Shown here one piece after another: positions 37,558-53,303 of a stretch of 64,000 nucleotides of DNA. The position numbers and the translations under genes are program-made. Source of the DNA: Exiguobacterium sp. s124 (GTDB lineage: Bacteria; Bacillota; Bacilli; Exiguobacteriales; Exiguobacteriaceae); contig NZ_JACSKH010000001.1 of the NCBI RefSeq assembly GCF_018617485.1, positions 558,001 through 622,000 on the forward strand. Reading direction: 5' to 3'. Under the pieces are notes generated by a model, which did no database searches, was not told the DNA's origin, and saw only the letters and a program-made list of their open reading frames with translations. Position 1 is the stretch's first letter. Each line of letters opens with the position of its first letter.

Positions 37558-40293
37558 TTAATAAATGAAACGTGGAATATCGAATTCGGCTGTATAAGAA
37601 TCAAGTAATTTGTAAATCTCGTGAATCTTATACGTCTGTTTAAATGCCCAACCAATATCGGTTGCGTATTGATACGTTCCAGGTTTTGCTGGGTTGAAGC
37701 GCATCTTATAAAGTGTGTTCTGTTGACGTGAGTTATTGATGTATCTTGCACTGATCCATTGTCCGCCTCCATAGATGGCTTTCGCCGGAGTGACCCATCC
37801 ATTATCGAACGCGTACTTCGCTCCACCTGCTAATGGATTCGAATCCGTCGCGCCGATTCCGAACATGTTGTAGACGAGATGTTTCTTCGTCTCATCAGTG
37901 GTACTCAAGTTACCATTTTCATCTACCCAAACACCTTTTGCAAGAGTTGATGTACCGTTACCAGTTTCCAGGAATGCATGCGACATCAAGTACACTTCAT
38001 TGATGTTAAATGCTTTACCTGAGTCAATGAAAGCTTGTGCTTGTCCATCAAGAATACCCTTGCCGACCAATGCTTTGTTCAAAACAGTTGCAGATGCATT
38101 CGTTGGTTTCGAAAGGTCTAAGAACTGGAACGATTCGTAAGGTGATTCAAGTGCTTTTTCAAATTCGACCAAACGTGGGTCAACACGATTTAAGATGTCT
38201 TCTTCAGTAGCCAAGCGCCACGTGTTATCAAAGACGCGTTCTGATTCTCCTGCTTTGCGTTTGTAGCTAATGATGTAGAAGTTGTCCTTCTCACCTAACA
38301 CGTTGACGATACTGTTCACATTTAAGATTCCGTAAATATGAGAGTTCGTATTTGAATCTGCTCGAACGCGGAGACCTGATACGGTAATTCTGCCAGTATT
38401 CGTGCCTTCAATCAGTTCAACGTATTCTTGTGAAACATAGGCAGCTGTCCCTCTATACTTATCGGTTTGAGCATTGACTCCTTTTTGGATATCAACCATG
38501 TCTGTCAATTTGTATGCGTAGTCAGTGTAATTCAAGACAACATTTTTTGAGCCAGGAATTGTCTCAGGAACTGTTGGACCTGTATAAGGTTTGATGTAAT
38601 CGCGACTGACGTACGCTGTAACGAATTTGTCGTTGACGACATATTCGATTTGAGACCAATCACTATTCACATCTTTAATGACACCGATGATTTGATTCTT
38701 CTCTAATTGACCGATTTTATTCGTAGACGTGACGCCTGGAGTGCTTCGCACGTTTAATCCATCTACTGTGACAACGGCTTCATACTTGATTTCATAATCG
38801 GTATCTTCCGCTGGTTCACTCGGCTTGGCTGGTGCTTTGTCAGTCAAGTATTTCTTCGCGACGTAACCGGTCTTCCCGTCATATTTCACTTTATACCAAT
38901 CACCATGTGATGAGACGTACTCGACTTTCTCATTCGGCAAAATGGTCATAAGAAGGCTGCCGCTAGTTGATGCCTTGTCACGTAAGTTCAAATTGACGGT
39001 CGTGTAATAATATTTCTTCACGACTGGAGTTTCCGGTTTTGAAGGAGTCGTTTTGACTTCTGACAAATATTTACTAGACACATAACCTGTTTTGCTACCG
39101 TATTGAACGCGATACCAACTACCCGATTTTGAGATGTATTTGACTGTCTTGTTTTTCGGGATCGTCACGAGAATCTTGCCTGACGTAGATGCCGAACTAC
39201 GCAAGTTCAAATTCTCTGTCGTTTTATAAGCTTTCGACGTAGCATTGGTTGTTGGTGGTTTTGTCGCTGGTGGCTTAGCCGCCGGTGTGGATGTTTTTGT
39301 CGCCTTTATGTATTTAGACGAGACATAACCAGTCTTCGAACCATATTTGACGCGATACCAACTACCTGATTTCGAGACATACTTCACTTCTTTACCTTTT
39401 GGAATCGTGAGGATGCGAGATCCAGAAGTTGAAGCTTTTGTCCGCATGTTCAAATTGACGGTAGTCGTGTATTTCGTTGTCGTTTTGTTTGAGCTAGTTG
39501 ATGTTGATGGTGGCTTCGATGTCGAAGTAGAGTCATCTTTTACAACTTTTGTCGTTGATTTCACATATTTAGACGAAACGTAACCGGTCTTCGAGCCGTA
39601 TTTGACGCGATACCAGCTACCTGACTTCGAGAGATATTGAATCTCTTTCCCTTTTGGAATCGTGAGGATACGCGATCCAGAAGTCGACGCTTTTGTGCGC
39701 ATATTCAAGTTGACCGTCGTAGTATAAACCTTCTTCGTTGAACTAGAAGATGATGAAGTCGATGTCTTCGAAACTGTTGACGTCGCTTCTTTAATAACTT
39801 TGTTCTCAGATTTTACATATTTTGATGAGACATAACCGGTCTTTGAACCGTATTTGACGAGATACCAGCTACCTGATTTTGAGATGTATTGAATCTCTTT
39901 GTTTTTCGGGATCGTCAATAAGACTTTCGCCTTTAAGCTCGCAGACGAACGTAAGTTAAGATTCTCCGTAACGCTATATACTTTTTCGACTTTTTGCGCG
40001 CTTGTCGATGAAGTCGAAGTCATTTTGAGATAAGTAGAAGAAACGTAACGTTGTTTCCCTTTGTATTCGATTTTTGCCCATGTTCCTTTTGTGCTCAATA
40101 CAGAGATTTTTGTCCCTTTTGTGAGCTTCCCAACGATCGGGGAAGATGTAGAGGAAGATTGTCGGACATTTAATACGGCTGTGTCGACGGTTGCAGTTTT
40201 CGATGCGGCGTCTGCGTGTTGAGTGTAAAGTGTAGCGAACAATGCGCCACTTAAGAAAATGGCTGTACTCAACCGCTTAGTTTGTTTGTTCAA
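37558..40293 (-). CDS. Secreted SH3-repeat beta-N-acetylglucosaminidase
   Basis: 911 residues. Signal peptide about 1–30 (ending QHADAA), then eight bacterial SH3 (SH3b) modules near residues 33–91, 104–162, 189–246, 273–331, 355–411, 427–485, 505–569 and 635–677, joined by Ser/Thr/Pro/Lys linkers. A GH73-like LytD/LytG-type glucosaminidase domain ends the protein (about 740–900), with likely catalytic E776 in SHAFLETGNG. It should bind and cut peptidoglycan during growth or flagellar insertion. The start is TTG behind AAGGAGG. A promoter is at 40342–40371. Modules 2–5 are nearly identical, suggesting recent duplication. Confidence 0.88.
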   Translation of the reverse strand: MNKQTKRLSTAIFLSGALFATLYTQHADAASKTATVDTAVLNVRQSSSTSSPIVGKLTKGTKISVLSTKGTWAKIEYKGKQRYVSSTYLKMTSTSSTSAQKVEKVYSVTENLNLRSSASLKAKVLLTIPKNKEIQYISKSGSWYLVKYGSKTGYVSSKYVKSENKVIKEATSTVSKTSTSSSSSSTKKVYTTTVNLNMRTKASTSGSRILTIPKGKEIQYLSKSGSWYRVKYGSKTGYVSSKYVKSTTKVVKDDSTSTSKPPSTSTSSNKTTTKYTTTVNLNMRTKASTSGSRILTIPKGKEVKYVSKSGSWYRVKYGSKTGYVSSKYIKATKTSTPAAKPPATKPPTTNATSKAYKTTENLNLRSSASTSGKILVTIPKNKTVKYISKSGSWYRVQYGSKTGYVSSKYLSEVKTTPSKPETPVVKKYYYTTVNLNLRDKASTSGSLLMTILPNEKVEYVSSHGDWYKVKYDGKTGYVAKKYLTDKAPAKPSEPAEDTDYEIKYEAVVTVDGLNVRSTPGVTSTNKIGQLEKNQIIGVIKDVNSDWSQIEYVVNDKFVTAYVSRDYIKPYTGPTVPETIPGSKNVVLNYTDYAYKLTDMVDIQKGVNAQTDKYRGTAAYVSQEYVELIEGTNTGRITVSGLRVRADSNTNSHIYGILNVNSIVNVLGEKDNFYIISYKRKAGESERVFDNTWRLATEEDILNRVDPRLVEFEKALESPYESFQFLDLSKPTNASATVLNKALVGKGILDGQAQAFIDSGKAFNINEVYLMSHAFLETGNGTSTLAKGVWVDENGNLSTTDETKKHLVYNMFGIGATDSNPLAGGAKYAFDNGWVTPAKAIYGGGQWISARYINNSRQQNTLYKMRFNPAKPGTYQYATDIGWAFKQTYKIHEIYKLLDSYTAEFDIPRFIY
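38839..39984 (-). repeat. Tandem SH3b-module coding repeats
   Basis: Five consecutive ~250-bp units encode modules 2–6. The shared stretch SGSWYRVKYGSKTGYVSSKY recurs with few changes in modules 2 to 5, and the linkers vary in length and Ser/Thr content. Unit number is likely variable by recombination. Confidence 0.7.
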
Positions 40294-40536: not shown

Positions 40537-40563
40537 TAAACAATCTGAATAGAGTTCCGATAT
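40537..40563 (+). promoter_or_regulatory. sigma-D promoter of flagellin 1
   Basis: TAAA (40537–40540), 15-nt spacer, TCCGATAT (40556–40563), against the sigma-D consensus TAAA-N15-GCCGATAT. The same arrangement precedes flagellin 2. Confidence 0.8.
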
Positions 40564-40569
40564 AGAGTA

Positions 40570-40686
40570 TGGAAACGTCAAAATCGTTCCAAATAATGTA
40601 AGGTGAGGGGCCGGCCTAAACCTTACATGCTCGGACAAACGGACTTGGAAGAGCGGAAAAACTCAAACCTATGGAGGGAACTTACA
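40570..40686 (+). promoter_or_regulatory. Structured flagellin leader with CsrA-type GGA motifs
   Basis: First hairpin GGAAACG/CGTTCC (40571–40590). Second hairpin ATGTAAGG (40596–40603) / CCTTACAT (40621–40628) with a GGCCGGCC palindrome in its loop. Then GGA motifs at 40633, 40641, 40647, 40655, 40673 and 40677, the last two in the ribosome site GGAGGG. Multiple GGA motifs over the Shine-Dalgarno are the hallmark of CsrA-repressed leaders. A full-length near copy precedes flagellin 2. Confidence 0.65.
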
Positions 40687-41514
40687 ATGATCATCAACCA
40701 CAACCTTAACGCAATGAACGCACACCGCAACATGTCGATCAACACGGGCAACGCCGGGAAAGCGATGGAGAAATTGTCTTCAGGTCTTCGCATCAACCGT
40801 GCAGGCGACGACGCAGCTGGACTTTCAATCTCTGAGAAGATGCGCGGACAGATTCGCGGTCTTGATATGGCTTCTAAGAATGCGCAAGACGGAATCTCAT
40901 TGATCCAAACGGCTGAAGGTGCATTGAACGAAACGCATGCAATTTTACAACGTCAGCGAGAACTCGTTGTTCAAGCTGGTAACGAAGGTACTTTAGCTGC
41001 TGATGATTTGTCTGCTATTCAAGATGAAATTACAGAATTAAATTCAGAGTTAACTGGGATTGCAACTCGTACAGAATTTAACGGTAAAAAATTGTTAAAT
41101 GGTTCTTATAGTGCTGATTTACAAATTGGTGCAAACAATACACAACAATTAACTTTGACAATTGATTCAGATGGATCAGGAGCAGGATTTGATGCTACTG
41201 ACTTAGGAGTAAGTGCTATTGCTGCTAGTGGTACAAGCGCGGACGCTGACCTTACATTAGTAGATGCTGCAATTAAGAAAGTATCGGCATCACGTTCAAG
41301 TTTGGGTGCGAACCAAAACCGACTCGAGCACACGATCAAAAACCTCGAAAACGCATCAGAAAACCTCACAGCTGCAGAATCACGTATCCGTGACGTTGAC
41401 ATGGCGAAAGAGATGATGAATTTTACGAAGAACAACATCTTGAACCAAGCTTCGCAAGCAATGCTAGCTCAAGCCAACTCTGCACCGCAGGCAGTACTTC
41501 AACTCCTTAGGTAA
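40687..41514 (+). CDS. hag: Flagellin 1 (unspliced reading frame; contains the start of a group I intron)
   Basis: 275 residues. D0/D1 helices at both ends are near identical to flagellin 2 (IINHNLNAMNAHRNMSINTG, LSSGLRINRAGDDAAGLSIS; C-terminal SRIRDVDMAKEMMNFTKNNI). The short central region is AT-rich and different. The last 14 codons (41470–41511) encode QANSAPQAVLQLLR plus stop, and in my reading already belong to a group I intron. Splicing would join codon 261 to 41861–41905 and give QANQQPQAVLQLLR, again 275 residues. An upstream in-frame ATG at 40603 lies in the mRNA leader and lacks a ribosome site. Expression is probably sigma-D and FliW/CsrA dependent. Confidence 0.93.
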   Translation: MIINHNLNAMNAHRNMSINTGNAGKAMEKLSSGLRINRAGDDAAGLSISEKMRGQIRGLDMASKNAQDGISLIQTAEGALNETHAILQRQRELVVQAGNEGTLAADDLSAIQDEITELNSELTGIATRTEFNGKKLLNGSYSADLQIGANNTQQLTLTIDSDGSGAGFDATDLGVSAIAASGTSADADLTLVDAAIKKVSASRSSLGANQNRLEHTIKNLENASENLTAAESRIRDVDMAKEMMNFTKNNILNQASQAMLAQANSAPQAVLQLLR

Positions 41515-41860
41515 GAATTGACGGGCGTCTTGTCTGGTAACGGATAAGAGTATAACTGGGTGAATTGCTGGAACTCCTTAGAGCCATCCTTACGACAACG
41601 TGACTGGAAACGGTGAGCGTGAACGTTTTGAAAAAAGGAAGGGATTGGACAATCAGCAGCCAAGCATCTGTCAGGAAACTGTGATGAAGGTTCAACGACT
41701 AGGATGGACGACCTACTGACTCTACTATCTATGGTTATGAGATCCGTACCTCGTAGACGGCGAGGGAAGTGCCCAGCCCCGATTTTACAATGTGATTTTT
41801 TTAAAACATGTAAAAGGGTGAAGATATAGTCTGGACCATATTGAAAAATATGGATATCTG
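41470..41860 (+). other. Group I self-splicing intron in the flagellin gene (391 nt, no ORF)
   Basis: Conserved core elements appear in order. P2 TCTTGTC/GATAAGA at 41528–41534/41543–41549; P3 5' strand TATAAC at 41551 pairing with GTTAT at 41734–41738. P element ATTGCTGGAA with P4 TTGCTG at 41565–41570 pairing with CAGCAG in Q (AATCAGCAGCCAAGC, 41651–41665). R GTTCAACGACTAG (from 41690) with GACTA pairing to TAGTC in S AAGATATAGTCTGG (41821–41834), forming P7. P9 is CCATATT/AATATGG. The intron ends in G at 41860. Extra sequence between R and P3' suggests subgroup IA. The 5' splice site after T41469 is inferred from frame and from flagellin 2; P1 is weak there (GCTC with GGGC, including a U·G). 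No homing endonuclease is encoded. Confidence 0.85.
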
Positions 41861-41905
41861 CAAGCAAACCAACAGCCACAAGCTGTACTTCAATTGCTCC
41901 GTTAA
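41861..41905 (+). other. Flagellin 1 second exon (alternative C-terminus)
   Basis: Fourteen codons plus TAA encode QANQQPQAVLQLLR, identical at protein level to the end of flagellin 2. Directly preceded by the intron's terminal G. It has no start codon or ribosome site of its own and can be expressed only through splicing to 41469. Confidence 0.82.
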
Positions 41906-41935
41906 TCTAGCAATTAAGTATTTAATCGTTTTATT

Positions 41936-41967
41936 AAACCGTGGAGCTTATGCTTCACGGTTTTTTT
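41936..41967 (+). terminator. Terminator of the flagellin 1 unit
   Basis: AAACCGTGGAGC and GCTTCACGGTTT pair (one G·T) around TTAT, followed by TTTT. It lies after exon 2, so the transcript includes the intron and exon 2. Confidence 0.85.
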
Positions 41968-42112
41968 ATGTCTTGCCATTTGAAGACGAATGACCAACAA
42001 GTTCGATTTAAACATTGGGCAATCTCTTTATTTGTCACTCCTTGTTTTCTTTTAAAAATCTATATTGTCAAAAATATGGTCTAATCAATTGGTTTGAAGA
42101 TTTGTAAAAAGC

Positions 42113-42139
42113 TAAACACTTTGATTCTTTATCCGATAT
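42113..42139 (+). promoter_or_regulatory. sigma-D promoter of flagellin 2
   Basis: TAAA (42113–42116), 15-nt spacer, TCCGATAT (42132–42139). Sequence downstream of the -10 is almost identical to that of flagellin 1. Confidence 0.8.
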
Positions 42140-42145
42140 AGAGTA

Positions 42146-42262
42146 TGGAAACGTTGAAATCGTTCCAAATAATGTAAGGCGAGGGGCCGGCCTAAACCTT
42201 GCATGCTCGGACAAACGGACTTGGAAGAGCGGAAAAACTCAAACCTATGGAGGGAACTTATA
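42146..42262 (+). promoter_or_regulatory. Flagellin 2 leader, near copy of the flagellin 1 leader
   Basis: Same two hairpins and the same series of GGA motifs. The second stem has ATGTAAGG with CCTTGCAT, so one A–U pair becomes G·U. The strict conservation suggests a regulated RNA structure or recent gene conversion. Confidence 0.65.
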
Positions 42263-43108
42263 ATGATTATCAACCACAACCTTAACGCAATGAACGCACA
42301 CCGCAACATGTCGATCAACACGGGCAACGCCGGGAAAGCGATGGAGAAATTGTCTTCAGGTCTTCGCATCAACCGTGCAGGCGACGACGCAGCTGGACTT
42401 TCAATCTCTGAGAAGATGCGCGGACAGATTCGCGGTCTTGATATGGCTTCTAAGAATGCGCAAGACGGAATCTCATTGATCCAAACGGCTGAAGGTGCAT
42501 TGAACGAAACACATGACATTCTTCAGCGCATGCGTGAATTGACAGTACAGGCTGGAAACGAAGGAACTAACGCACCAGAAGATCTTGATGCAATCAAGTC
42601 TGAAATGGACCAACTTATTGCTGAAATTGATGGAATTGGTGATCGAACACAATTTAACGGTAAGACTTTATTGGATGGTTCACAAGCCTCTGGTACAGGG
42701 GATCTTGTTTTCCAAATTGGTGCAAACAACGGTCAAAAATTAACTTTGAATATCGACAGCATGAAAGCAGCTGATTTGGGAACAACAGTTGCAGTTTCAG
42801 ATCTTGATGTAACAGATTTTACGACTAATACTTTCGATGATCAATTGACTGGGATTGATGAAGCGATTCAATCAGTGTCTGATCAACGTTCTAGTTTGGG
42901 TGCGAACCAAAACCGACTCGAGCACACAATCAAAAACCTCGAAAACGCATCAGAAAACCTCACAGCTGCAGAATCACGTATCCGTGACGTTGACATGGCG
43001 AAAGAGATGATGAATTTCACGAAGAACAACATCTTGAACCAAGCTTCGCAAGCAATGCTAGCGCAAGCAAACCAACAACCACAAGCTGTTCTTCAATTGC
43101 TCCGTTAA
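42263..43108 (+). CDS. hag: Flagellin 2
   Basis: 281 residues. First ~80 and last ~65 residues are almost identical to flagellin 1 at DNA level; the centre (about 42540–42890) differs. It ends QANQQPQAVLQLLR without an intron. At the position matching the proposed 5' splice site it has GCG (43061–43063) rather than GCT. GGAGGG precedes the ATG. Both tandem copies probably enter the same filament. Confidence 0.95.
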   Translation: MIINHNLNAMNAHRNMSINTGNAGKAMEKLSSGLRINRAGDDAAGLSISEKMRGQIRGLDMASKNAQDGISLIQTAEGALNETHDILQRMRELTVQAGNEGTNAPEDLDAIKSEMDQLIAEIDGIGDRTQFNGKTLLDGSQASGTGDLVFQIGANNGQKLTLNIDSMKAADLGTTVAVSDLDVTDFTTNTFDDQLTGIDEAIQSVSDQRSSLGANQNRLEHTIKNLENASENLTAAESRIRDVDMAKEMMNFTKNNILNQASQAMLAQANQQPQAVLQLLR

Positions 43109-45346: not shown

Positions 45347-45721
45347 GTGGTAGCCAATCCATACGCAGCTTATCAAAACAATGCGGTCACGACCGCAAAC
45401 CCACAGGAACTGACGCTTATGCTTTATGATGGGGCACTCAAGTTCATGCGCCTCGCCAAGATAGCCATCGATCAGGGCCATCCTGATTTAAAAAATACTA
45501 ACATTCAAAAGACGCAAGCCATCTTCCAAGAACTTCGTCTGACACTCAATAAAGATATCGCCCTCTCGGAGAACTTAGACTCGCTCTATGAATATATGTT
45601 GCGCCGTCTCGTTGATGCAAACGTCAAGAACGACACGACGATTCTCGATGAGGTGATCGCTTTTACAACCGAACTCCGTGACACGTGGAAGGAAGCGATG
45701 AAACTCGCGAAGCAGTCATGA
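45347..45721 (+). CDS. fliS: Flagellin export chaperone FliS
   Basis: 124 residues: ANPYAAYQNNAVTTANPQEL, LMLYDGALKFMRLAKIAI, typical of FliS. It binds the flagellin C-terminal helix before export. GTG start behind AGGAGGAATTTAA. The stop overlaps the next start (ATGA). Confidence 0.94.
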   Translation: MVANPYAAYQNNAVTTANPQELTLMLYDGALKFMRLAKIAIDQGHPDLKNTNIQKTQAIFQELRLTLNKDIALSENLDSLYEYMLRRLVDANVKNDTTILDEVIAFTTELRDTWKEAMKLAKQS

Positions 45722-48702: not shown

Positions 48703-48809
48703 AGAGAGGGTCCTCCTTTGATATGTAGACTCTTTATCTATACCCAATCATCGAATCCCTCAATGAGGACATCATAAAAAACGTAGGAAAAAATATCCTA
48801 CGCTTTCGA

Positions 48810-49475
48810 TTATGCATGTTCCAAACGGAAATCCTCCCAGTGCGTTCGCGCCTGATTGCGAATCCGCTCTGATACTTCCTTGCTGTTGAGAAGAATCCCG
48901 TACCAGCGACGTGCGTCCTCATAATAATCGAGCGCAGCGGAGAGGTCGGCGATTCGTAACATAAGCTGATCGTACGGCAGACCCGTACGAATCGGGTCCG
49001 TATACGCCTCTTGCACCTCGTTGTATTTATCGAGTGTTCGCTGCATCCATTCCCGCTCTGATGTATGATCGCCAATCAAACGATACATCCAGACGAGACG
49101 CATTCCGAGCATGGCAACGACCGAAGGTTTTTGTCCGCTTAACTGCGCCGTCATGACCGCAAATTTATAAAGAAGGATGACGTGTTCGTGGGAGCGTTTT
49201 CCTTTCAGTATGTTCGGGTTCACTTGATTGAAATAATGCGTTTCGAGCGCTTCGCGATTATGTTTTCGCACCTTGTCAAACGAGTCATGAAAGACGAGAT
49301 GGCAATGGTCGCATACAGTCGGTTCGTATAAATACGGATTCGGACCGTCATACGTCGTATAGCCGTCCTTCGCGACCTCGAGCGGTCGGATGTGACGCGA
49401 CAAGACACGTTGGGACTTGCTTTCTTGTAAACAATACGGACATTTGACTTTCTTTAAAAACAAATGTTCAGCCAT
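48810..49475 (-). CDS. DUF2225 family zinc protein
   Basis: 221 residues. Two cysteine pairs, VKCPYCLQES and TVCDHCHLVFHDSF, form a zinc site; the C-terminal half is TPR-like helices (LSAALDYYEDARRWYGILLN). Last gene of the second flagellar cluster, 10 nt after yaaR. Function unknown. Confidence 0.75.
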   Translation of the reverse strand: MAEHLFLKKVKCPYCLQESKSQRVLSRHIRPLEVAKDGYTTYDGPNPYLYEPTVCDHCHLVFHDSFDKVRKHNREALETHYFNQVNPNILKGKRSHEHVILLYKFAVMTAQLSGQKPSVVAMLGMRLVWMYRLIGDHTSEREWMQRTLDKYNEVQEAYTDPIRTGLPYDQLMLRIADLSAALDYYEDARRWYGILLNSKEVSERIRNQARTHWEDFRLEHA

Positions 49476-49484
49476 TTCGACACC

Positions 49485-49928
49485 TCACACATAGACGTTG
49501 ACGAGCAATCCGCGAATCTCACCGACCTGGTCCAGGAGAGAAAGGCGAGAGGCTTCTCCTGAGATGACCTGGTCCGTCAAAGCGAGGAGCTTTTGGTCGA
49601 CTTGTTCGACGACCTTATAGATTTTTGCACGACCCCTACGATTGAAACCGCGCTTGTCCTCGAGACGGAGTGCCGCGTCAACGGCCTCTTTCATAAAGTC
49701 TTTAATCATTTGTTTGTATTCGGCGAGCGCCTCGACAGTCTGGCTCTCGGCGAGCAGTTCCCCTTGTTCGTGAATTGCAGCGATTTGACGATGGAAGCGT
49801 TCATGCTCGCGGTCTTCACGTTTTTGTCCAATCACATTTTGGAAGGAGACGCCGGGTTCGACTTCGGGGCGTTTCGTCTTACTTGAGCCGAGGAGCGATT
49901 GCGTCTCCATGATGCGACGAATGTCCAT
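49485..49928 (-). CDS. yaaR: YaaR family protein (DUF327)
   Basis: 147 residues, helical and charged: SFQNVIGQKREDREHERFHR, LAEYKQMIKDFMKEAVDAAL, RGRAKIYKVVEQVDQKLLAL. Matches the DUF327 YaaR family of unknown role. Here it follows a flagellin, which hints at an export- or filament-linked job. Confidence 0.75.
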   Translation of the reverse strand: MDIRRIMETQSLLGSSKTKRPEVEPGVSFQNVIGQKREDREHERFHRQIAAIHEQGELLAESQTVEALAEYKQMIKDFMKEAVDAALRLEDKRGFNRRGRAKIYKVVEQVDQKLLALTDQVISGEASRLSLLDQVGEIRGLLVNVYV

Positions 49929-49952
49929 ATGGGCAACCGTCCTTTCTTTAGG

Positions 49953-50855
49953 TTAGTTCAATAATTGTAACACGCCTTGTGGCAGTGCGTTCGATTGTGC
50001 AATCATCGCCATGCCGGACTGATTCAAGATGTTTAAACGGGCGAAGTCCATCATTTCACGAGCCATATCAGCGTCACGGATACGTGACTCCGACGCCGTC
50101 AAGTTTTCGGAGCCGATAGCAACGACACTAACGTTCGCTTCAAGTCGGTTTTGAATCGCTCCGAGTTTCGAACGCTCGAGCGATACGCGGTTGATAGCCG
50201 CGTCGAATTTCGAAATGGCTTCCTCAGCCTTGGCTGGCGTCAAGACGCTCAACGCATAATACACTTTATTCGGCGTCTTTAAATCGTTATCGTGATCGAC
50301 GGCAGGCAATTTTCCACCCCCGGGCGTTGTTGTCGTAATCTTTAAAGCATGTGCCCGCATGTCTTCCACGTTTAAGATGACAGCTTCGTTGCTTCCGGCA
50401 CCGATCTGGAAGAAGAGGGTGTTTTCACCCTTCATATATTCCCCGTTCATGACTTTCTTTGAGTTGAACTCTGTCGTTTCCGCGATTCGTGTCACTTCTT
50501 CCGTCAAGGCGTTAATTTCTTCTTGGACGGCTTTCGCATCATCTCCGCTAAGCGTTCCGTTCGCTGCCTGAACCGACAATTCGCGCATGCGTTGGAGAAG
50601 GGAATGTGTCTCGTTCATCCCACCTTCTAGCGATTGCGTGAGCGAAATGCCGTCCAACGTGTTGCGTTCGGCCATCGAGAGCGAGTCGAGACGCATTCGC
50701 ATCTTCTCCGAGATCGCAAGACCTGCCGCGTCGTCGGACGCTTTGTTGATGCGAACCCCGCTTGAGAGTCGGTCCATCGTCTTCTTCATCGACGCTTGGT
50801 TTAAGGAGAGGGATGTATAGGCTTTTAACGCTTGGACGTTATTCGTAATTTTCAT
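49953..50855 (-). CDS. Flagellin 3 (divergent)
   Basis: 300 residues. N-terminus KITNNVQALKAYTSLSLNQA, LSSGVRINKASDDAAGLAIS and C-terminus SRIRDADMAREMMDFARLNI ending NALPQGVLQLLN are flagellin D0/D1. It is clearly different from the tandem pair and lacks their leader. The ATG at 50855 has GGAGG at 8 nt and lies inside the end of fliS2 (17-nt overlap). It may be a minor or alternative filament subunit. Confidence 0.9.
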   Translation of the reverse strand: MKITNNVQALKAYTSLSLNQASMKKTMDRLSSGVRINKASDDAAGLAISEKMRMRLDSLSMAERNTLDGISLTQSLEGGMNETHSLLQRMRELSVQAANGTLSGDDAKAVQEEINALTEEVTRIAETTEFNSKKVMNGEYMKGENTLFFQIGAGSNEAVILNVEDMRAHALKITTTTPGGGKLPAVDHDNDLKTPNKVYYALSVLTPAKAEEAISKFDAAINRVSLERSKLGAIQNRLEANVSVVAIGSENLTASESRIRDADMAREMMDFARLNILNQSGMAMIAQSNALPQGVLQLLN

Positions 50856-51219
50856 AACGGTTTCCTCCAGTCGGGACGGGATGTAGTTTCGCACGTTCCA
50901 TCGCTTCGCTCCATGTTTGATCCAGGTCGCTTGCGAGCGTATGTAATTCTGCGATTTTTTTCTTGTCTTGATCGATGATCGCTTCAACACTGGCATTCGC
51001 CATGTATAAATAAATTTCATCGAGTTGTGCAGCGATGATGCCACCACCATCGTGTAGTCCTTGATGGAGCTTCACCAACAGCTCGCGTGCTTGACGTAAG
51101 TGACGATTGCGTTCGGCGATGGTCGAATCTTGAGCGCGTTCATAATGATACGTGAGTGCGTGTAACATCGCCTGCGTCAGTTCTTCTGGCCTCATCTCAT
51201 ATAGTTGGGTTGAATTCAT
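50839..51219 (-). CDS. FliS paralogue
   Basis: 126 residues resembling FliS: PEELTQAMLHALTYHYERAQ, LYMANASVEAIIDQDKKKI, LDQTWSEAMERAKL. Less like FliS of the main operon. It is translationally coupled to flagellin 3 and overlaps the upstream gene by 4 nt, so it is probably the dedicated chaperone of flagellin 3. Confidence 0.75.
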   Translation of the reverse strand: MNSTQLYEMRPEELTQAMLHALTYHYERAQDSTIAERNRHLRQARELLVKLHQGLHDGGGIIAAQLDEIYLYMANASVEAIIDQDKKKIAELHTLASDLDQTWSEAMERAKLHPVPTGGNRYENYE

Positions 51220-51506
51220 CCTTGTTCTCCTTTAATGGAATCGAGTTCTTCAATCAAAAGCAACACTTCCGCCATCACGTCATAGAGCTGCGGGGGAATG
51301 GCGTCCCCTAAGTCGAGATCGAGCAGATGACCGAGCAACGAGTGATCGTTTTCAACGGCGACCCCACGAGCGCGGGCTTCTTGTAAAATCTTTTCGGCGA
51401 CCGCGCCTGTACCGCGCGCGACGATGACGGGCGCCTTGTCCGTCGATTCGTCATAGCGGACGACCGCGGCCGTCTTTCGTTTCGTCAAATCCATGCGTTG
51501 GTACAT
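51216..51506 (-). CDS. FlhB C-terminal-like protein (YlqH type)
   Basis: 96 residues corresponding to the cytoplasmic C-terminal domain of FlhB/EscU (KRKTAAVVRYDESTDKAPVI, VARGTGAVAEKILQEARARG). The autocleavage NPTH motif is absent. B. subtilis YlqH is such a stand-alone domain, found next to YlqG as here. Might act in export-substrate switching. Confidence 0.82.
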   Translation of the reverse strand: MYQRMDLTKRKTAAVVRYDESTDKAPVIVARGTGAVAEKILQEARARGVAVENDHSLLGHLLDLDLGDAIPPQLYDVMAEVLLLIEELDSIKGEQG

Positions 51507-51515
51507 CGGGGCCTC

Positions 51516-53234
51516 CTAAATTCTGAAGTCATAGCCGGTCGTCGGTGCGATCTTAGGCTCATCGGCGACACGTTCGGCTTTCGTGAGTGGTTTGAATTGG
51601 GTCGTCACACTCTTATAACCGATTGTCTCGAGCGTCTGTTCGATCTTGCCGAGGAGCGGGCGTGCGAGTCGTTCGACCGTCGTATCGTCATGTTCGAGCG
51701 TGAGGCGGAGGTTTCGGTCTTTCGCCTCGAGTTTGACGCCGATCTCGCCGAGGCGAGGTGTCTCTAAACGGATATAGAGGACGCTGTTCTCCCAGTCGAC
51801 GACGTCACCGGCCTCCCGGTTTTGGATATGGACGTGAATCCCGGTGTCGATCTCCTGCACTTTCGCCGGAAGGGCGAACAGGAGCTGGAGGAGCTGCCCG
51901 CCATCGAGTCGATTAAGCGTCTGTTGAACCTGGAGGAACGAAGCGAGTCGTTGGGCCTCGGGATTCGTCGTATCCCCTCGTACCGACAATGCGGATGTTG
52001 GCGTATTCGATGTCGCTTGAACGGCTTGCGCTTGAGCCTGTACACGTTGTGTCACTTCCTGCACATGGCGGCCTGATAACGTCGAATCGAGCTTGAGTGG
52101 CGCAATGCTGGGGATTTCTCCGGCACGTGTCGCCCCGTGCGGGATATATTCGATGCGTGCCTGGTTCGGCGCGTAGCGGAAATCGTTTAAGGTCGCCCGA
52201 ACTTCTTTGACGAGTGCCGCGCTCTCTTGCGGTTTTGTCGAAAGGAGCGACAGCGCGACATCGAGTTTGGCCGTCATGGCGACGAGCTGCTTTTCTTGGG
52301 TCACGTCGGTATGAAGCAGTGCATCCGTTTTTTGAACGAGTTGTGTCAAACGGGTAGAAACGGTCTCGAGAGCAGGTCGTGCCGAATGTGGGTTTGTCTC
52401 AATCAATGCGGCGACTTGTCCAAGCTGTTTCGTCACCGTCGCTTGTTCGTTTCTGAATGTGTTTGTTACGTTCGCGAGATGACTCGTCACTTCCTTGACC
52501 ATGACTTGGCGTCCATTGACCGATGGAAGCGGCAACGGTTCGGTGCGCTCCATCTTCGGTGGGATAGGCAAGTCACGAATCACTCGATCGATCGTCTCCG
52601 GCGTCGGCGTCACCCGTTCGCTCACGGGACGTGACAAGTTGACGAGTTCGACGTATCGCTCTTTTTTTGGATACGGCGCGTCTGGCGCCGGCGGTGTGAG
52701 GAGCTGTCTCGCTTCATGTAAGGAGAGGACGGCGATTTCTCGTGCGACCTCTCGGGGAACGGTCGGCGTGTCGAGCGTCTTCAGATGAAGGATGACGTCG
52801 CGCATGTCTCCTTTAAAGGCCGTCTCGAGCAAGCGCACCGTGTCCTCGTTCATCGGCAAGCGCCCGGATTGAAGCAGTCGGCTGACCGCGCTTCGCACTT
52901 CAGGTGGAAGGGCGGCGAGGAGCGTCTGGATCTTCGCGTCAAGCTTTGACGATGCAGGTGGTGCGGGTTCAAGCGTCTCTTCCTTTTGTGGAACAACGGT
53001 CGCGAGCAAGACGCCGTCCTGTTCGGCAAGCGTCACTTGGAACGGGTTCGTCTTCGGGAGTCCGTCTTTGAATGTGACCTCGACTTCTTCACCGTTGATC
53101 TTGACGATTGCGGAGTCGGGGCCTGTCTGTTTGACGAGCTCGGCCTTATAGGTCCGGTTCGTCTGGATGCCTGGTAAGACCGAACTGACGGCGGTCGCTT
53201 GGGCTTGAATTTGCATGTTTGTCACCTCGACCAT
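51516..53234 (-). CDS. FliK-like hook-length/YlqG-type protein
   Basis: About 572 residues (an ATG at 53216 is equally well served by GAGG). Long low-complexity middle rich in Thr, Val, Pro and Gln. The C-terminal domain near 470–560 (LLFALPAKVQEIDTGIHVHI, LYIRLETPRLGEIGVKLEAK) resembles the flagellar hook-length control domain. Pairing with the FlhB-like gene matches ylqG–ylqH in B. subtilis. Role in hook-length control is not shown; a FliK proper may lie elsewhere. Confidence 0.7.
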   Translation of the reverse strand: MVEVTNMQIQAQATAVSSVLPGIQTNRTYKAELVKQTGPDSAIVKINGEEVEVTFKDGLPKTNPFQVTLAEQDGVLLATVVPQKEETLEPAPPASSKLDAKIQTLLAALPPEVRSAVSRLLQSGRLPMNEDTVRLLETAFKGDMRDVILHLKTLDTPTVPREVAREIAVLSLHEARQLLTPPAPDAPYPKKERYVELVNLSRPVSERVTPTPETIDRVIRDLPIPPKMERTEPLPLPSVNGRQVMVKEVTSHLANVTNTFRNEQATVTKQLGQVAALIETNPHSARPALETVSTRLTQLVQKTDALLHTDVTQEKQLVAMTAKLDVALSLLSTKPQESAALVKEVRATLNDFRYAPNQARIEYIPHGATRAGEIPSIAPLKLDSTLSGRHVQEVTQRVQAQAQAVQATSNTPTSALSVRGDTTNPEAQRLASFLQVQQTLNRLDGGQLLQLLFALPAKVQEIDTGIHVHIQNREAGDVVDWENSVLYIRLETPRLGEIGVKLEAKDRNLRLTLEHDDTTVERLARPLLGKIEQTLETIGYKSVTTQFKPLTKAERVADEPKIAPTTGYDFRI

Positions 53235-53274
53235 AATATCGACCTCTTTTTCAAAAAATGAAGCGAAACAAACG

Positions 53275-53303
53275 AAAAAACCTTCCGTCTTTTCGACGGA
53301 AGG
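53275..53303 (-). terminator. Terminator of comK
   Basis: On the minus strand CCTTCCGTC and GACGGAAGG pair around GAAAA, followed by TTTTTT. It separates comK from the flagellar cluster. Confidence 0.8.

Follow-up and report, generated by a model that had tools for sequence, protein, structure and literature searches.

The 64,000-nucleotide (nt) stretch of Exiguobacterium sp. s124 analysed here (contig NZ_JACSKH010000001.1, positions 558,001–622,000; hereafter the window) carries a minus-strand unit comprising genes for a FliK-like protein, a stand-alone FlhB C-terminal protein, a second FliS (FliS2), a third flagellin (Hag3), YaaR and a DUF2225 protein. With a probability of roughly 0.6, we regard this unit as the Exiguobacterium representative of an accessory module for flagellin export that is conserved in Bacillota, uses the shared export gate and has the docking motif of its FliS2 relocated. 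Gene content, gene order, distribution, selection, flagellin lineage, FliS fold, the tyrosine shift and the sigma-D-like promoters were all established by computation.

The module would consist of the FliK-like protein, the FlhB-CC-like protein, FliS2 and the flagellin, usually accompanied by YaaR. As to its operation, we infer the binding and docking of FliS2, the order of export and the place in the filament from sequence. FliS2 would bind the module flagellin at its C-terminus and bring it to the common flagellar export gate, where a tyrosine of the C-terminal FliS2 tail, and not an N-terminal helix, would dock on FlhA. The FliK-like/FlhB-CC-like pair may tune gate specificity or timing for this flagellin, YaaR may serve as a cytoplasmic helical-bundle helper, and the main flagellin would stay with the classical chaperone, FliS1. 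The product would be a second flagellin in all or part of the filament of one flagellar apparatus.

Organization of the unit

Genes were assigned from open reading frames (ORFs) and Pfam matches. The features of the unit and the genes used for comparison are the following, in window coordinates:

51516–53216, minus: FliK-like gene, 566 amino acids (aa) when started at the ATG that has a good ribosome site; weak Flg_hook match and gene context
51216–51506, minus: stand-alone FlhB C-terminal (FlhB-CC-like) protein, 96 aa; Bac_export_2, 48.5 bits
50839–51219, minus: fliS2, FliS paralogue with the C-terminal tyrosine tail ...NRYENYE; Pfam FliS (PF02561), 52.3 bits (gathering score 26.7)
49953–50855, minus: hag3, module flagellin, 300 aa; Flagellin_N and Flagellin_C matches, phylogenetic tree
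49485–49928, minus: yaaR (DUF327), sole copy in the genome; 127 bits (gathering score 25.8)
48810–49475, minus: DUF2225 gene, sole copy in the genome; 107.8 bits (gathering score 21)
53236–53262, minus: sigma-D-like promoter, TTCA-N15-GTCGATAT; TTCA and GTCGATAT invariant in the window and 18 relatives
53275–53303, minus: intrinsic terminator at the boundary between comK and the unit, CCTTCCGTC/GACGGAAGG plus T-run; aligned and kept in the window and 18 relatives
48776–48802, minus: terminator closing the unit, CGTAGGA/TCCTACG plus T-run; read by eye, with no program score
53308–53814, minus: comK, upstream neighbour beyond the terminator and outside the unit; ComK, 99.1 bits
40687–43108, plus: main flagellin genes hag1 and hag2 (comparison), each with TAAA-N15-TCCGATAT at −150
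45347–45721, plus: classical fliS1 (comparison), N-terminal NPYAAYQNN; TIGR00208, 135.3 bits

From the FliK-like to the DUF2225 gene, the six genes are spaced by +9, −4, −17, +24 and +9 nt, in exact agreement with the gaps or overlaps of 4–25 nt given in the original prediction, although the FliK-like gene falls just outside the span on which that prediction was made. The 17-nt overlap between fliS2 and hag3, which runs from the Hag3 ATG at 50855 to the end of the FliS2 stop codon at 50839, was likewise exact and is identical in 18/18 other Exiguobacterium genomes.

Pfam matches and conserved gene order bear out the claim of a second flagellin unit with a FliS of its own: Hag3 has both Flagellin_N (135.5 bits) and Flagellin_C (86.7 bits) over cut-off, and FliS2 scores well above the Pfam threshold. 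Against the FliS equivalog TIGR00208, FliS2 reaches 29 bits, below the cut-off of 53.75, vs 135.3 for FliS1. As for the two upstream labels, the FlhB C-terminus is over the Pfam cut-off, with TIGR00789 missed (82.4 vs 117.35 bits), whereas FliK is below it. The name FliK-like is weakly founded, on a sub-cut-off Flg_hook match and on gene context; the gene is homologous to the FliK-like genes of other modules. Elsewhere, the genome has one full flhB and, at its usual place, a canonical ylqG-ylqH pair, so the FlhB-C gene of the unit is a third FlhB-type gene and its FliK-like/FlhB-C pair is an extra one. Across the whole genus, comK lies directly upstream of the unit, yet behind the conserved terminator.

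Conservation and distribution

Within the family, the unit is complete and of unchanged order in 18/18 other Exiguobacterium genomes, with csp-hpf-secA after it and a DinB-like gene before it in each, and the whole unit including DUF2225 is present in 14/14 sampled genomes of a sister genus. Ratios of nonsynonymous to synonymous substitution rates (dN/dS) of 0.013–0.071, calculated for the window vs five relatives with one FliS2 pair saturated, place all six genes under purifying selection. Hag3 is 76–92% identical to its orthologues, vs 49–77% for the main-flagellin matches of these loci and 46–70% for FliD; FliS1 is 84–93% identical between Exiguobacterium species. The FliD and FliS1 values and the diversity of the main flagellins indicate rapid variation in the surface components of the main filament. 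The main flagellins are also multiplied in the genus, with two genes in the window (40603–43108) and four in tandem in another locus (L031). Beside the flagellin genes, at 37558–40293, lies a probable autolysin of 911 aa, which by eye contains numerous SH3-like repeats and ends in a glucosaminidase-like part.

Beyond the genus, the module first showed up as a similar gene run around the DUF327 genes of L136 and L138, which represent two further families of Bacillota. Searching with a FliS2 alignment then yielded 65 loci, namely 54 module loci outside Exiguobacterium (L158–L211), 10 from Exiguobacterium and one unlike match from a Thiobacillus metagenome-assembled genome (L222). The 54 loci fall in Bacillaceae, Jeotgalibacillus, Paenibacillaceae and Heliobacteriaceae. 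By tblastn, a FliK-like and an FlhB-C gene lie near fliS2 in 54/54 and yaaR does so in 50/54, the remaining four being short loci of 3.3–11.9 kb; DUF2225 was found near fliS2 in 0/54 and is thus part of the unit only within Exiguobacteriaceae. Where the flanks allow its placement, the module frequently sits between comFA-comFC and flgK-flgL-fliW-hag.

An evenly sampled set of 299 genomes of the class, in which 37 places were taken from the upper part of the match list, contained 18 FliS2 loci outside Exiguobacteriaceae, with the FliK-like gene in 17/18, FlhB-C in 17/18 and YaaR in 7/18. One family, f126 (L231–L239), has modules without YaaR, most of them placed behind or close to fliD-fliS1. 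Five checked matches at 89.9–103 bits (L241–L245) proved to be classical FliS, and none had FliK-like/FlhB-C neighbours. Since FliS2 and FliS1 are not separable by bit score alone, FliS2 was called by best match and neighbourhood. Each of the 46 genomes with FliS2 in the class sample (the 18 outside Exiguobacteriaceae, 14 of Exiguobacterium and 14 of the sister genus) gave two FliS-type matches, so FliS2 is present in addition to FliS1 and not in its place. Another kind of FliS duplication was seen in L245 (G532:C1:3135000-3152000), in which a flagellin gene is flanked by two very similar classical fliS genes.

FliS2 and its putative docking tyrosine

The fold comparison was made with an AlphaFold model of the Cytobacillus homologue L172, standing in for the FliS2 of the window. 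Its confident core retains the FliS fold, with a Z-score of 19.7 over 110 residues and a root-mean-square deviation of 1.1 to B. subtilis FliS from the flagellin complex (6gow_E). FliS structures as a whole gave Z-scores of 14.4–19.7, vs at most 13.8 for unrelated bundles.

Classical FliS docks on FlhA with Ile7, Tyr10 and Val13 of its N-terminal helix, and FlhA binding also proceeds through FliT Tyr106 and FlgN Tyr122, both toward the C-terminus (PMC5932034). Deletion of residues 2–18 of B. subtilis FliS, or the double replacement Y7A,Y10A, results in null behaviour (PMC6070490). Tyrosines were counted in 104 FliS2 and 56 FliS1 sequences, of which seven and one, respectively, were unanchored and omitted. 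A tyrosine at the classical Tyr10 position occurs in 2/97 FliS2 vs 53/55 FliS1, and the two missed FliS1 do carry an N-terminal tyrosine by eye, their anchor having been misplaced. Conversely, a tyrosine lies within the last 30 residues in 96/97 FliS2 vs 10/55 FliS1, and the corresponding column (L172 Tyr136) is invariant in a 50-row alignment that includes the window. The docking tyrosine of FliS2 thus appears, from these alignments, to have moved to the opposite end of the protein relative to classical FliS. Neither this shift nor the occurrence of the module in several further families had been foreseen in the original prediction.

The tails vary around this tyrosine, with AYEKNV, AYEQNV and, in family f126, NPYQQREM. 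The NPY of the f126 tails makes them resemble the classical FliS start NPYQAYQQN. An 11-residue profile of the classical start scored highest within the last quarter in 42/53 non-Exiguobacterium FliS2, vs a mean of 12.3 and a maximum of 21 in 200 rounds of a shuffled control.

The original prediction also proposed FliS2 and flagellin 3 as a matched chaperone–cargo pair. The fixed gene neighbourhood and module-specific flagellin C-termini favour this pairing, which distance correlations fail to support. In the 16 loci that also have a main flagellin, the partial correlation with FliS2 was 0.09 for module and 0.19 for main flagellin.

Several results weigh against the module as proposed. FliS2 and flagellin distances correlate no more strongly than expected from the common history of the whole unit (partial r of 0.12 given YaaR, n = 46). 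The FliK-like protein matches Flg_hook (PF02120) with 15.4 bits and an E-value of 0.016, under the cut-off of 29.8, and YaaR is not next to the module in 11/18 class-sample loci. One FliS2-like protein (L240) lacks a tyrosine in its last 30 residues, and the tail helix of the L172 model (residues 128–140) is of low confidence, with a predicted local distance difference test score of ~51. Finally, the classical-start profile matched best in the last quarter of just 2/19 Exiguobacterium FliS2, and its absolute scores are low.

The low-confidence tail and the weak motif match in Exiguobacterium also speak for another role of the C-terminal tyrosine, within an autoinhibitory tail or one that binds YaaR or FlhB-CC, with a different surface of FliS2 reaching the gate. 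FlhB-CC and often YaaR are encoded nearby as possible partners. This alternative survives best, and we still hold it to be unlikely, as the residue on which FlhA docking of FliS, FliT and FlgN depends is absent from the N-terminus of FliS2 and near-universal at its C-terminus.

An elaboration of the module would add early delivery. FliS2 with its tyrosine on a free tail, like FlgN, would need no release from autoinhibition, and the module flagellin would reach the gate ahead of the main one. The FliK-like and FlhB-CC-like proteins would then act as a second, soluble switch for the handover from module to main flagellin, and many Firmicutes would have a two-part filament whose segment next to the hook consists of module flagellin. 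Taken jointly, tail docking, a second specificity switch and a two-part filament form a conjunction that we consider quite doubtful.

Promoter and leader

In all 19 Exiguobacterium sequences, TTCA-N15-GTCGATAT is kept just upstream of the FliK-like ATG. Its −35 element is weak, with two of four matches to the TAAA of the sigma-D consensus. A sigma-D-like site within 90 nt upstream of the FliK-like gene was present in 32/51 modules vs 98/495 control ORFs (Fisher p of 4e-10, uncorrected for relatedness of the sequences); three of the 54 modules had too little upstream sequence for this count. Pattern scanning of the window for sigma-D sites returned zero matches, as did a scan for the ComK box.

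The unit had been supposed to lack a GGA leader and to escape FliW/CsrA control, which the counts do not support: five GGA occur in the 80 nt before hag3 (2–5 in the 18 relatives) vs six each before hag1 and hag2, although those before hag3 sit in the fliS2 coding sequence, so that their number is no proof of a CsrA site. The hag1 and hag2 leaders (40540–40687 and 42110–42263) are nearly identical over 150 nt and contain an GGCCGGCC palindrome within an inverted repeat. With the six GGA in its last 80 nt, this is a candidate CsrA/FliW-controlled leader.

The module flagellin

A tree of D0/D1 regions was calculated from 98 rows, with two incomplete module rows omitted; it is unrooted and the placement of some long rows is uncertain. 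A branch with 100/99 support separates 28 main flagellins from 51 module flagellins and 19 Hag3, and the Hag3 clade (100/100) sits on a long stem of 1.49. Hag3 and the module flagellins are, by their sequences, an old lineage apart from the main flagellins. Their last residue is Q or K in 33/33 module rows of one length, a count that omits 17 rows of another length and L161, which has a long branch. It is N in 19/19 Hag3, vs R in 23/27 main rows; a further main row had no anchor. The B. subtilis mutant hag R304E is almost devoid of swarming and of filaments (PMC6070490).

Module flagellins range from ~270 to 1105 aa. The D0/D1 helices are complete in Hag3 and in 10 large module flagellins scanned out of 53 extracted; in these 10, no convincing extra Pfam cargo domain was found in the variable region.

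This length variation would be consistent with a different output, that is, a flagellin released into the medium or serving as an adhesin and forming no swimming filament. Hag3 further has D at the putative position of B. subtilis R57. The R57E variant of B. subtilis Hag is non-swarming (PMC6070490). Complete D0/D1 helices and sigma-D-like promoters stand against such an output, to which we attach little credence.

The genome has three flagellins (hag1, hag2 and hag3), a number that, together with the multiplied main flagellins of the genus, would fit an ordinary hag/fliS duplication that drifted to give a redundant minor subunit with incidental FliK/FlhB neighbours; this explanation is highly improbable, since a recent duplication is disfavoured by the flagellin tree, with its separate old lineage, and by gene order repeated across families, and the low dN/dS values also oppose it.

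YaaR and DUF2225

The proposed link of both families to flagella gained support from co-occurrence with FliS and from the motility phenotype of a Leptospira relative. Among 299 genomes of the phylum, 241 have FliS; DUF2225 occurs in 121, 116 of them with FliS, and DUF327 in 139, 133 of them with FliS, all counts being uncorrected for phylogeny. When thirteen weak FliS matches are dropped, the figures become 114/121 and 130/139. Inactivation of the Leptospira biflexa DUF2225 protein LEPBIa0550 causes a motility defect (PMC12236494). It belongs to the same Pfam family as the DUF2225 protein of the unit but is spirochaetal and, as far as that article tells, encoded outside a flagellin module. Elsewhere in Bacillota, flagellar genes lay within ~8 kb of DUF2225 in just 3/40 sampled loci (L096, L097, L104). 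In L104 (G228:C15:42000-58000), the DUF2225 gene is found between flgB-flgC-fliE-fliF and fliS-fliD-hag.

The YaaR model matched the DUF327 structures 2qup (Z-score 17.8) and 2p61 and the designed protein 6y06 highly, with unrelated helical bundles at Z-scores of at most 11.8; the solved DUF327 structures name no function. No chaperone with a FliS/FlgN-like fold appeared among the listed structure matches, which excludes nothing.

Comparison with known systems

FliS, flagellin, FlhB-CC and FliK-like proteins are familiar types; what appears to be new is their fixed association in a module and the switch of the docking tyrosine to the other end. No prior description of the module was found in the literature searched, whose coverage omits most subscription papers. 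The module represents four to five genes for flagellin export that are common to several Firmicutes families. As a natural rearrangement of the FlhA-docking motif in a type III chaperone, it offers a test of whether the position of the tyrosine sets export order, and YaaR (DUF327) and DUF2225, families without assigned function, gain a concrete place to look.

The YlqG–YlqH pair of the rnhB-sucC locus likewise combines a FliK-like with a stand-alone FlhB-CC protein; the pair of the unit differs in being an extra one tied to a flagellin, in a genome that also has canonical ylqG-ylqH. FlhX of Helicobacter is a "spare part" for FlhB-CC. In Clostridioides difficile, two genes bearing the names fliS1 and fliS2 lie side by side between csrA and fliD (PMC4026244); two FliS genes per genome are found there as here, and the shared name implies no orthology. 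With the B. subtilis FliS/Hag/FliW system (PMC6070490), the unit shares the FliS core fold and flagellin D0/D1. It differs in its chaperone, FliS2, in which a C-terminal tyrosine tail is present and the N-terminal Y7/Y10 segment missing, and in that the module flagellins form a separate lineage and end in Q, K or N instead of R. Lastly, FlgN and FliT carry their docking tyrosine near the C-terminus, a likeness of position to the tyrosine of FliS2, and they differ from FliS2 in their substrates, which are FlgK/FlgL and FliD, respectively (PMC5932034).

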